Assembly (NCBI RefSeq): GCF_036014195.1
Contig: NZ_CP107918.1
Coordinates: forward strand, 1,364,001-1,428,000
Length of the DNA stretch: 64,000 bases
Reading direction: 5' to 3'
From: Streptomyces sp. NBC_00442
GTDB taxonomy: Bacteria > Actinomycetota > Actinomycetes > Streptomycetales > Streptomycetaceae
Part shown: positions 20,784-25,217 of the stretch, piece after piece
Layout of the letters: each line of letters opens with the position of its first letter
How positions within the stretch are numbered: position 1 is the first letter of the stretch
Made by a program: the position numbers and the translations under genes
Notes under the pieces: model-generated
What the model was told of the DNA's origin: nothing
The model's database searches: none
Seen by the model: the letters and a program-made list of their open reading frames with translations, nothing else

Positions 20784-20802
20784 TTAGGTTAGGCTTAGCT
20801 AA
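20784..20802 (+). promoter_or_regulatory. iron box upstream of argC
   Basis: TTAGGTTAGGCTTAGCTAA matches 17 of 19 positions of the DmdR/IdeR consensus TTAGGTTAGGCTAACCTAA. It lies 57 bp before argC, where the arginine repressor box would normally be; I see no ARG box. This places the arg operon in the same iron regulon as the siderophore genes. Confidence 0.8.
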
Positions 20803-20858
20803 GTTGCACGGGCGGGCCTTCGTGCTGCTGCGTCTGCGAACACACAGAATGGACGAAC

Positions 20859-21899
20859 ATGACCGTACGGGTCGCGGTGGCCGGTGCCAGCGGATACGCG
20901 GGAGGGGAACTGCTCCGCCTGCTGGCTTCGCACCCCGGCGTCCAGATCGGCGCGGTGACCGCGCACAGCAGCGCGGGCCGCCGGCTCGGGGCCGTACAGC
21001 CGCAGTTGGCGGGGCTCGCCGACCGGGTCCTGCTCGACACCCGTGCCGACGCCCTGCGCCGCCACGACGTCGTGTTCCTCGCCCTCCCTCACGGCCAATC
21101 CGCCGCGCTGGCCGCCGAGTTGGAGCCCAGCACGCTCGTCGTGGACTGCGGCGCCGACTTCCGGCTGCGCGACCCCGCCGCCTGGGAGCGGTTCTACGGC
21201 TCCCCCCACGCCGGCACCTGGCCGTACGGGCTGCCCGAACTGCCCGGCGCGCGCGAGGAGTTGAAGGGAGCCGCGCGCATCGCGGTGCCGGGCTGCTACC
21301 CCACCGCCGTCACCCTGGCCCTGTTCCCCGCCCACGCCGCCGCGCTCGTCGAACCCGAGGCCGTCGTCGTCGCCGCCAGCGGCACCTCGGGCGCCGGGCG
21401 CTCGCTCGCGCCGCACCTGCTCGGTTCCGAAGTGATGGGCTCCATGAGCCCGTACGGGGTCGGCGGCGGCCACCGTCACACCCCTGAACTCGTCCAGAAC
21501 CTGTCCCGCGCCGCCGGCGAACACGTGACGGTGTCCTTCACCCCGACCCTGGCGCCCATGCCCCGCGGCATCCTCGCCACCTGCTCGGCCCGGCTGCGCC
21601 CGGAAGTCGCCGCGAGCGGGCGGGACGACGAGGTGCGGGCGGTGTTCGAGACCGCGTACGCCGACGAGCCGTTCGTCCGGCTGCTGCCGCCCGGCCAGTG
21701 GCCCTCCACCGGCGCCGTCCTCGGCTCGAACACGGCCCAGGTGGGGATCGCCGTGGACCCCGACGCCCGCAGGCTGATCTGCGTGAGCGCCATCGACAAC
21801 CTGACGAAGGGCACCGCCGGTGGTGCGGTGCAGAGCATGAACATCGCCCTCGGCCTGCCGGAACGGCTGGGCCTGCCCACGAATGGAGTGGCTCCGTGA
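20859..21899 (+). CDS. argC: N-acetyl-gamma-glutamyl-phosphate reductase
   Basis: A 346-residue NADPH-dependent reductase, third step from glutamate to ornithine. The Rossmann motif [18 protein letters not shown] is at residues 5-22 and the catalytic cysteine is C146 in VPGCYPTA. The conserved [11 protein letters not shown] loop is present. First gene of argCJBD; its stop overlaps the argJ start. Unlike the usual arginine operon, the promoter carries an iron box, which suggests that this copy feeds siderophore hydroxyornithine. Confidence 0.96.
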
Positions 21900-23047
21900 G
21901 TGTGACCGCCGCCCTCGGATTCCTTGCCTGCGGAGTGCGCGCCGGCCTCAAGGAATCCGGAGAACCGGACCTCGCCCTGGTCGTGAACCGGGGGCCCGTG
22001 CGCGCCGCCGCCGGTGTCTTCACCTCCAACCGCGTCCAGGCCGCGCCGGTCCGCTGGTCGCGCCGTACGCTCGACAGCGGCCGGGTGTCCGCCGTCGTGC
22101 TCAACTCCGGCGGGGCGAACGCCTGCACGGGACCCGGAGGCGCCGACGACACCCGGCTGATGGCCGAGCGGACCGCGCTGGCCCTGGAGATCGACCCGGA
22201 CGAGGTCGCGGTGTGTTCCACGGGACTGATCGGGGTCCGCCTTCCGATGGACCGCGTGACGGCCGGCATCACCGCCGCCGCGGACCGGCTCTCGGCCCGG
22301 GGCGGCGAGGACGCGGCCGTCGCGATCAAGACGACGGACTCCGTCCACAAGACCGCGGTGGCCGCGGGCGACGGCTGGACGGTGGGCGGCATGGCCAAGG
22401 GTGCGGGCATGCTCGCCCCGGGCCTCGCCACCATGCTCGTCGTCCTGACCACGGACGCCGTCGCCGACGCGGCCGTCCTCGACTCGGCGCTCCGCGAGGC
22501 GGTACGCACCACCTTCGACCGGGTCGACTCGGACGGCTGCATGTCCACCAACGACACCGTGCTGCTGCTCGCGTCGGGATCCTCCGGCGCGACCCCCGGG
22601 CGGGCCGTGCTCAGCGCGGCCGTGCACGCCGTCTGCCAGGACCTGGCAGGCCAGTTGATCGCGGACGCCGAGGGCGCGTCCAAGGAGATCGAGGTGTCGG
22701 TCGTCGGTGCCGCGTCGGAGGCCGACGCCGTCGAGGTGGGCCGTTCCGTGGCCCGCAACAACCTTCTCAAGTGCGCCCTGCACGGCGAAGACCCCAACTG
22801 GGGGCGGGTGTTGTCCGCCATCGGCACGACATCGGCCGTCTTCGACCCGGACCGCCTCGATGTGGCGATCAACGGCGTGTGGGTGTGCCGGGACGGCGCC
22901 GCGGGCGAGTCCCGCGACAAGGTCGACCTGACGGGCCGGCACATCACCGTCGTGGTGGACCTGCGCTCCGGCGACGCCTCGGCCGCCATCCGGACCAACG
23001 ACCTGACGGCCGAGTACGTCCACGAGAACAGCGCGTACAGCTCGTGA
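21896..23047 (+). CDS. argJ: bifunctional glutamate N-acetyltransferase / N-acetylglutamate synthase
   Basis: A 383-residue ornithine acetyltransferase. It releases ornithine from N-acetylornithine by passing the acetyl group to glutamate. The GTG at 21896 overlaps the argC stop (GTGA) and follows GGAG. The self-cleavage site reads [13 protein letters not shown], with cleavage expected between A178 and T179 so that T179 becomes the nucleophile of the beta chain. The oxyanion residues (STGLIG) and the C-terminal GEDPNWGR block are present. Because ArgJ recycles acetyl groups, argCJBD plus a priming acetyltransferase is enough to make ornithine. Confidence 0.96.
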
Positions 23048-24018
23048 GCCGGGCAGGGACGGCGGCGCCGGAGATACCCGCCGCGCGGACGGCGGCGCCC
23101 GAGAAGCCGGCCGCGGTGCCGGCCGCGGTGCCCAACTCGCCCGACGTGCCGTGGACCGAGGAGCTCCAGGGCCGCACGGTCGTCGTGAAGTTCGGCGGCA
23201 ACGCCATGGTGGACCCGGCGCTGCACCACCACTTCGCCCAGGACGTGGTGGACCTGTGGCACGCGGGGCTGCGGCCCGTCGTGGTGCACGGCGGCGGTCC
23301 CCAGATCAGCGCCCTGCTGGACCGGCTCGGCCTGGAGGTGCGCTTCGAGGCCGGGCTGCGGGTGACCACGCCGGAGACGATGGACGTCGCCCGCATGGTG
23401 CTCACCGGACGTGTCCAGCGGGAACTCGTCGGGGCCATCAACGCCCACGGGCCGCTCGCCGTGGGCCTGTCGGGCGAGGACGCGCACACGATGACCGCCG
23501 TGCGGCGGGCCGCCGTGGTGGACGGCCGGCCGGTGGACATCGGCCTGGTCGGTGACATCGTCGCCGTGGATCCCTCCACGATCGGCACGCTCCTCGAACA
23601 GGGCCGCATCCCCGTCGTCTCCCCCATCGCGCGCGGCGAGGACGGCCAGATCTACAACGTCAACGCCGACCTCGCGGCCTCGGCGCTGGCCGTCGCCCTC
23701 GGCGCGGACCGGCTGATGGTCATGACGGACGTCGAGGGTCTCTACGCGGACTGGCCGCACAGCACCGATGTCGTCGGCCGGCTGACCGCGGCCGAACTGG
23801 CCGCCCTGCTACCGCGGTTGGCGAGCGGCATGCTGCCCAAGATGGAGGGCTGCCTGCGGGCGGTCCGAGCCGGGGTGGGCCGCGCGCAGGTCATCGACGG
23901 CCGGGTGCCGCACGCACTGCTGCGCGGCCTGTTCGCCGAGGACGCACCCGGCACCACGGTGGTGCCGGACGAAGAGGGCGGGCCCCCGGGGCCCGTCGCC
24001 CAGGAGGACGGCGCGTGA
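23044..24018 (+). CDS. argB: acetylglutamate kinase with Ala/Pro-rich N-terminal extension
   Basis: A 324-residue kinase, second step of the acetylated ornithine pathway. The amino-acid-kinase fold begins at [11 protein letters not shown] (about residue 43) and continues with [10 protein letters not shown], the substrate loop and YNVNADLAA. The GTG at 23044 overlaps the argJ stop. Residues 2-36 are an extra tail rich in Ala and Pro with an imperfect repeat ([18 protein letters not shown]); I do not expect this in standard ArgB. It may be a linker or a fusion relic. Other in-frame starts before the core are possible but break the GTGA coupling seen throughout this operon. Confidence 0.95.
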
Positions 24019-25217
24019 CCGCCGACAGCACGACCACGCTCACCGAGCGCTGGCGCGCGGTGATGATGGACACCTACGGCACCCCGCCGCTTGCGCTGGT
24101 CAAGGGCGAGGGCAGCACGGTGTGGGACGAGGCGGGCCACACCTATACGGACTTCACCGGCGGGATCGCGGTCAACGCGCTCGGGCACGCCCACCCCGGC
24201 CTGGTCGCCGCCGTCGTGGCTCAGGCGACGCGCCTCGGCCACGTGTCGAACCTGTTCGTCGCGGAGCCGCCGGTCGCCCTCGCCGAGCGGCTCCTGAACC
24301 TTCTGGGCAGGCCGGGCCGGGTGTTCTTCGCCAACTCGGGCGCCGAGGCCGTCGAGGCCGCGTTCAAGATCGCCCGCAGGACCGGGCGCCCTCATCTCGT
24401 CGCGGCCGAGGGCGGTTTCCACGGGCGCACCATGGGGGCGCTCGCCCTCACCGGCCAGCCGGCCAAGCAGGCGCCGTTCACGCCGCTGCCCCCGGAGGTC
24501 ACCCACGTCCCCTACGGCGACGCGCAGGCACTGCGCGCCGCCGTCACGGAGCGCACGGCGGCGGTCGTCCTCGAACCGGTGCAGGGCGAGGCCGGCGTGC
24601 TCCCGGCCCCCGCGGGCTATGTGCGGGCCGCCCGCGAGATCACCCGGGCGACGGGCACCCTGCTGGTGCTCGACGAGGTGCAGACCGGGATCGGCCGCAC
24701 CGGCCACTGGTTCGCGCACCAGGCGGAGCCGGGCGCGGACCCCGACGTGATCACCCTCGCCAAGGGCCTCGGCGGCGGCCTGCCGATCGGCGCCACGGTC
24801 GCCTTCGGCGCCGCCGCGGACCTGCTGACCCCGGGTCAGCACGGCTCCACCTTCGGCGGCAGCCCGATCGCGTGCGCGGCCGGCCTTTCCGTCCTCGACG
24901 CGATCGAGAAGGAGGAGCTGCTCCCCCACGTCGCGCGGGTGGGCGACCGTCTGCGCGGGGGCGTCGCCGGGCTGGGCCACCCCTTGGTCCGCGAGGTGCG
25001 GGGAGCGGGGCTGCTCCTGGGCATCGTGCTCGCCGAGCCGCTCGCGGCGCGGGTCCAACGGGCCGCGCAGGACGCCGGGTTCCTCGTGAACGCGGCCGGA
25101 CCCGCGGTCGTACGCCTCGCGCCCGCCCTCAACGTACCCATGGAGCGGGCCGACGCCCTCGTGGCGGCGCTGCCCGCGATCCTCGACGCCTCGTACGCCG
25201 CCGGGGGCGCGGCCTGA
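24015..25217 (+). CDS. argD: acetylornithine aminotransferase
   Basis: A 400-residue class III PLP aminotransferase that makes N-acetylornithine from the semialdehyde and glutamate. The Schiff-base lysine is K250 in [11 protein letters not shown]. The cofactor motifs [15 protein letters not shown] and [15 protein letters not shown] are intact. The GTG at 24015 overlaps the argB stop (GTGA), so all four genes are coupled. A very strong hairpin follows at 25224-25289. No argR gene follows, unlike the common Streptomyces argCJBDR order. Confidence 0.96.

Follow-up and report, generated by a model that had tools for sequence, protein, structure and literature searches.

Coelichelin contains three hydroxyornithine-derived units, and the qinichelin cluster reportedly has an ornithine operon of its own. 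Ornithine operons inside nonribosomal peptide synthetase (NRPS) clusters are already known; in PMC9866976 the lunaemycin cluster has its own ornithine operon (lun11-14), which is compared with that of stenothricin (StenJ-M), and qinichelin is cited, the common feature being a second argC, argJ, argB and argD set in an NRPS cluster that uses ornithine. The operon described here has the same gene set and lies in a 64,000-nucleotide stretch of the Streptomyces sp. NBC_00442 chromosome (the window, C1:1364001-1428000 in a single-contig genome of 7.73 Mb). We predict, with a probability of roughly 0.77, that this argCJBD set is a dedicated ornithine-supply operon of the adjoining coelichelin-type siderophore cluster, that it is switched by iron and that its ArgB is insensitive to arginine. 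Beyond the likeness to the lunaemycin, stenothricin and qinichelin operons, several features are known from the window and its relatives alone, namely an iron box, the loss of parts of the arginine site from ArgB, a GNAT acetyltransferase that resembles N-acetylglutamate synthase (NAGS) and relatives where argB alone was found. The operon and its immediate surroundings are as follows (percentages are protein identities to the housekeeping copy).

20784-20802, forward strand: iron box (DmdR-type operator) TTAGGTTAGGCTTAGCTAA, matching 17 of 19 positions of the 19-bp palindrome (two mismatches)
20859-21899, forward strand: argC (TIGR01850, 387.6 bits, cut-off 233.6; 71%)
21896-23047, forward strand: argJ, bifunctional ornithine acetyltransferase (NF003802, 445.6 bits, cut-off 351; 66%)
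23044-24018, forward strand: argB, acetylglutamate kinase, predicted to be arginine-insensitive (TIGR00761, 233.1 bits, cut-off 151.3; 63%)
24015-25217, forward strand: argD, acetylornithine transaminase (NF002874, 604.7 bits, cut-off 457; 70%)
25224-25289, no strand: 27-bp inverted repeat (loop of 12 nucleotides) where argD and the acetyltransferase gene converge, read by eye
25295-25822, reverse strand: GNAT acetyltransferase whose best relatives are N-acetylglutamate synthases, convergent with argD

All four arg genes are intact, and each scores above its NCBIfam equivalog or equivalog-domain cut-off. As the initial annotation had described, GTGA overlaps couple them, at three junctions (21896, 23044 and 24015), and a 17/19 iron box precedes argC; 56 bp separate it from the ATG at 20859. 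The inverted repeat after argD is a probable two-way terminator. Iron boxes were scored against a 19-bp palindrome that we take to be the consensus. When the window was shuffled 100 times, there were no iron-box matches with three or fewer mismatches. Across the whole genome TTAGGTTAGGCTNNNCTAA has eight matches at seven sites with at most two mismatches, and the reversed control pattern has none. Four of the seven sites are in the window: before argC, before an esterase gene, among transport genes and between the monooxygenase and formyltransferase genes. A gene for a DtxR-type repressor is present in the genome.

The operon had also been regarded as a second copy beside a housekeeping one, and the genome search agrees. 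A second argJ, at C1:6449695 on the same chromosome, sits in a complete argCJBD-argR operon, and therefore one half of the contrary case (that the window operon is the only arg operon and responds to arginine, not iron) is ruled out. The housekeeping argC of this genome has two TGCATA half-sites upstream, and a half-site (TGCATA, TATGCA or ATGCAT) occurs in the 150 bp before argC in 70 of 74 housekeeping copies. None of the three is found in that interval in the 28 dedicated copies inspected, window included, so the absence of an ARG box holds up. Likewise, no argR follows the window argD, the next gene being that of the convergent acetyltransferase; the window operon thus has neither of the marks of an ArgR regulon that we looked for, an argR gene of its own and ARG half-sites upstream of argC. 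That the window argCJBD is a second copy, predicted to be under iron control, is well supported by this gene and operator content.

The hydroxyornithine siderophore cluster said to start about 1.2 kb further on is present, with an MbtH-like gene, an NRPS and the genes for a monooxygenase and a formyltransferase.

26400-26612, reverse strand: MbtH-like protein of the siderophore cluster (PF03621), 1.18 kb past argD
26737-26755, forward strand: iron box before the siderophore esterase gene (iron-box scan)
26758-27945, forward strand: siderophore esterase, enterochelin-esterase-like (open frame; the true start may be downstream)
28306-30024, reverse strand: ABC exporter-type protein (PF00664/PF00005)
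29996-40975, reverse strand: coelichelin-synthetase-like NRPS with three adenylation, three peptidyl carrier protein and four condensation-family domains
43928-43946, forward strand: iron box among the transport genes (iron-box scan)
47173-48540, reverse strand: cchB-like L-ornithine N5-monooxygenase, the ornithine consumer (PF13434, 365.8 bits)
48641-48659, forward strand: iron box separating the monooxygenase and formyltransferase genes, which are divergent (iron-box scan)
48775-49749, forward strand: cchA-like formyltransferase (PF00551/PF02911)

The cluster also holds a substrate-binding protein, an ATPase, FecCD permeases and, in all, two ABC exporter-type proteins. Judged by gene content it is of the coelichelin type, since it shares with what we take to be the Streptomyces coelicolor cch gene list the formyltransferase, the ornithine monooxygenase, a three-module NRPS, the esterase, MbtH and ferric-siderophore transport. 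The cch limits in S. coelicolor are given in PMC9739823 as sco0499/cchA to sco0489/cchK. The window operon is a complete argCJBD, separate from the argR operon, that adjoins a cluster with an NRPS and an ornithine monooxygenase, in which the NRPS would use an ornithine derivative. Directly before the NRPS start (40976-41009) there are two overlapping, weaker iron-box-like sites with four and five mismatches. The neighbouring genes at 49780-53141 (reverse strand), which are hydroxyproline epimerase/proline racemase-like, DapA-like and Rid-like, are perhaps a separate hydroxyproline catabolic set, and upstream of the arg operon (17299-18825, forward strand) an N-terminal helix-turn-helix is joined to an EPSP-synthase-family domain in one protein.

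Arginine feedback is generally said to act at the acetylglutamate kinase and NAGS steps. According to PMC3329491, N-acetylglutamate kinases (NAGKs) that are inhibited by arginine have an N-terminal extension helix, whereas the E. coli enzyme, which arginine does not inhibit, is without one; the arginine site lies between the extension helix, helix H and the loop that follows helix H. Housekeeping Streptomyces ArgB proteins have PKAQILIEALPWL near the N-terminus and HSILLEIFTDEGIG at the other end; among 74 of them the first glutamate is present in all and the second in 73. The second glutamate, that of helix H, is matched in our alignment by the Mycobacterium tuberculosis, Synechococcus, Arabidopsis and Pseudomonas structures. 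The window ArgB has the kinase core and substrate motifs of an acetylglutamate kinase, and it lacks two parts of the hexameric, arginine-inhibitable enzymes: a proline/alanine-rich tail stands where most of the N-terminal helix is missing, and the helix-H glutamate is a glycine. In its AlphaFold model, residues 1-33 have a confidence score (pLDDT) below 50. From these features we predict that the enzyme is insensitive to arginine.

The E. coli kinase resembles it in being without the extension helix (PMC3329491), and structure 1gs5 aligns only from model residue 42 onward. However, the window ArgB is nearest the arginine-sensitive actinobacterial type (54% identity to M. tuberculosis ArgB), and on the tree its site was lost secondarily. 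In the Corynebacterium NAGK, exchanging one residue of the arginine site, Glu19 or His268 for instance, relieves or modifies the inhibition (PMC10464499). We infer that Glu19 is the helix glutamate examined here. In contrast to those feedback-resistant mutants, the loss seen in the window arose naturally and has become fixed in a single lineage; it takes in most of the helix and spares the histidine.

To place the operon among its relatives, 392 Streptomyces genomes were searched with the window ArgJ and the window ArgB. The ArgJ search gave 30 genomes, the window's own among them, that have another argJ in addition to a copy at 77% identity or more. The ArgB search gave 83 rows at threshold, of which 75 were taken as the dedicated type; eight rows of 63-66% identity were set aside, and G035, the one among them whose locus was read, has argR. 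We read 76 argB loci without argR: the window, 28 selected by ArgJ, L150, L151 and 45 of the 46 selected by ArgB. Left out were L149 and L218, which have argR, and L119 (G320), which is too short. L129 is cut by a contig end inside argB, and L215 and L216 reach one upstream of argB, which leaves the gene content of these two and the absence of a box in them uncertain. Among 197 genomes sampled across the class, 16 of them from Streptomyces, the matches listed outside the genus have at most 66% identity to the window ArgB, and by this measure there is no sign of the dedicated argB lineage there.

The gene sets of the 76 loci vary. The complete argCJBD is present in 26, argCJB in four, argJBD in two (L131 and L012, without argC), argC-argB-argD in two (L177 and L205, without argJ), argBD in one and argB alone in 41; these reduced loci were found through argB, and reduced forms without it would be missed. 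Forty of the 41 argB-only loci have an iron box, and 37 have a linked acetyltransferase. In L127 the interval between argJ and argB is about 1.4 kb longer than in its relatives. In L011 an isochorismatase-family hydrolase gene (PF00857, L011:8219-8887) separates argC from the iron box; the corresponding interval is about as long in other relatives, and in the window no such gene was seen before argC.

Seventy-one of the 76 loci have an iron box with at most four mismatches no more than 1.3 kb ahead of their first arg gene: one mismatch in 31, two in 29, three in eight and four in three. Forty-two of these boxes are within 300 bp of the first arg gene and 29 are farther away, where an intervening gene is possible; the loci with no box are L141, L151, L200 and the contig-end loci L215 and L216. 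By comparison, 74 housekeeping loci (1.47 Mb in total) have none. A cchB relative (at least 75% identity) lies within 35 kb of 50 of the 75 dedicated-type argB genes, farther away on the same contig in four cases and on another contig in eight; the other 13 are in genomes without one, and several of these have a monooxygenase of 58-61% identity within 9 kb of argB. The comparison with cch-bearing strains proposed by the initial annotation came out as expected, with boxes and cchB linkage on the dedicated side. It did not yield a general rule: of 117 genomes with such a cchB relative, 62 carry a dedicated-type argB at threshold and 55 do not.

The helix motif and the second glutamate are both lost in 63 of the 76 ArgB proteins and both kept in 12, and one protein is truncated; an independent alignment gave the same 12, 63 and one for the second glutamate. 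In the 63, this position holds Gly (51), Ser (8), Ala (2), Cys (1) or Arg (1). L151 has the helix motif, and L134 and L138 are without it. A tree was built from 70 of the 75 relatives with a complete frame, minus L134 and L138, plus 23 of the 74 housekeeping rows, with a midpoint root only and with the tested arginine-site segments excluded from the alignment. On this tree the site loss needs two changes. One is on a branch with 57 rows (99/92). The second, independent loss is in L222, an NRPS cluster on plasmid pSALBX2 of Streptomyces sp. CL7 that contains argCJBD and also encodes LmbU regulators and an ornithine oxygenase; its ArgB has G and P at the two glutamate positions. The site is kept beside or below the 57-row branch in L143, L146-L148, L205 and L219-L221. 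With the midpoint root, further dedicated copies that retain the site (L150, L215 and L216; L151 and L057) group with the housekeeping rows, which suggests repeated recruitment of arg genes.

These patterns bear on a simpler explanation, in which the operon is an ordinary cluster-linked ornithine operon of the qinichelin/lunaemycin kind that provides only gene dose and timing, and the ArgB site decayed by neutral drift of a redundant copy. The known clusters do have the same gene set (PMC9866976), and 12 dedicated copies retain both parts. We consider it unlikely, because the two parts were lost together in 63 of 63 cases, the core residues are invariant in 43 of 43 rows with low ratios of nonsynonymous to synonymous change (dN/dS of 0.15-0.31 in five pairs), the 41 reduced loci keep argB rather than argC, argJ or argD (with the proviso that argB led to them), and an independent plasmid cluster has other letters at both glutamates. 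The invariant core also bears on the idea that the dedicated ArgB has switched substrate, ceasing to be an acetylglutamate kinase, and modifies a siderophore intermediate in the loci (41 of 76) where argB alone was found. This we regard as very improbable: the invariant motifs are those that we take to be the N-acetylglutamate and ATP sites, the window ArgB is above the argB equivalog-domain cut-off, and in 26 loci the rest of the ornithine pathway stands alongside. A change of kinase substrate is therefore unsupported.

The GNAT acetyltransferase gene is found beside most dedicated argB genes. Its top matches, by profile and by structure, are NAGS enzymes, with a gap to the rest, and it would probably make N-acetylglutamate and prime the cycle. 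An activity on another substrate instead, such as a siderophore intermediate, has to be weighed, since GNATs are functionally diverse, its scores are far under the curated NAGS cut-offs (40.1 against 344, 37.7 against 202.85 and 25.9 against 180 bits) and a separate NAGS equivalog is encoded at C1:3155057. The NAGS-like top matches and the company it keeps with argB in argB-only loci speak against this, and we rate such an activity as plausible, at clearly less than even odds. That it is the genome's sole NAGS is ruled out by the C1:3155057 gene. Among 56 GNAT frames of the relatives, 35 have a box with at most five mismatches within 220 bp upstream and 21 do not; a looser count (41 of 59) takes in boxes of neighbouring genes and was not used. 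Upstream of the window GNAT gene, at a place where many relatives have an iron box, two nearly identical stretches of roughly 29 bp (GAGTCGGGTGCGCGGC..GACCCACAACTG) were seen by eye at 25952-26011.

Several observations weigh against a dedicated, iron-switched and arginine-insensitive ornithine supply. The histidine of the C-terminal arginine region is retained in 72 of the 76 loci, and the AlphaFold model of the window ArgB has a short helix remnant at residues 37-41, so that residual arginine binding is possible. In four of the 63 proteins that lost both parts, the first column still holds a glutamate although the helix motif is absent, which we ascribe to chance, and according to a review NAGK inhibition is not strictly bound to the hexamer (PMC10464499). 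The relatives were found by similarity to window proteins, which favours look-alike copies, and the 55 cchB genomes without a dedicated argB count against a general rule. As for the acetyltransferase, besides its low NAGS scores, no iron box was found for the window gene (the best site has ten mismatches), and a single-domain M. tuberculosis NAGS was solved with arginine, according to the title of 5yo2, so the GNAT need not be blind to arginine. The odds, here and for the broader statement below, are slightly lower on account of the histidine, the short helix and the fact that loci were picked by their argB.

With these points taken into account, the dedicated supply would work as follows. In iron shortage the DtxR-type repressor DmdR would leave the iron box, and argCJBD would be transcribed along with the cluster. 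Glutamate would be converted to ornithine through argCJBD, with the GNAT supplying N-acetylglutamate to prime the cycle, and the cluster monooxygenase would hydroxylate the ornithine for the NRPS. If ArgB is active at any arginine level, the flow of siderophore precursor would therefore be uncoupled from arginine both at the gene and at the enzyme level. In the many relatives where argB is found alone, usually with the GNAT, the remaining steps would be left to the housekeeping enzymes. This form is the strongest hint that uncoupling is the purpose, because just the arginine-controlled kinase is retained (in loci found via argB). The supply problem itself is real: in Aspergillus fumigatus ornithine synthesis appears to be inhibited by arginine and affects siderophore output (PMC3688985), although this is a fungus, and the passages cited mention no dedicated second copy of the pathway.

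A broader statement, for which we judge the odds to be little better than even, is that Streptomyces siderophore clusters carry an iron-switched, arginine-blind entry to ornithine. Its minimal form would be an ArgB that has lost parts of its arginine site, together with a NAGS-like acetyltransferase, and the window would have the form expanded with argC, argJ and argD; the site would have been lost once in the siderophore lineage and independently on a plasmid. In the open-licence literature we found, among the matches listed (titles and abstract openings), no paper on an arginine-insensitive, iron-controlled or argB-only argB in siderophore clusters. Three points go beyond the initial annotation: ArgB has lost parts of its arginine site, a NAGS-like acetyltransferase gene accompanies it, and in some loci argB alone was found.

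If this reading is true, argB genes without the N-terminal helix beside an iron box would be a marker for hydroxamate siderophore clusters, their products would be natural candidates for arginine-insensitive kinases in ornithine engineering, and the gradation from an intact site through a lost site to argB alone would be suited to studying how allostery is lost. The siderophore building blocks would be made under iron shortage whatever the arginine level, and the cluster would escape the feedback of primary metabolism by encoding the regulated enzyme itself, in a form that is without the allosteric site and obeys the cluster's own switch.

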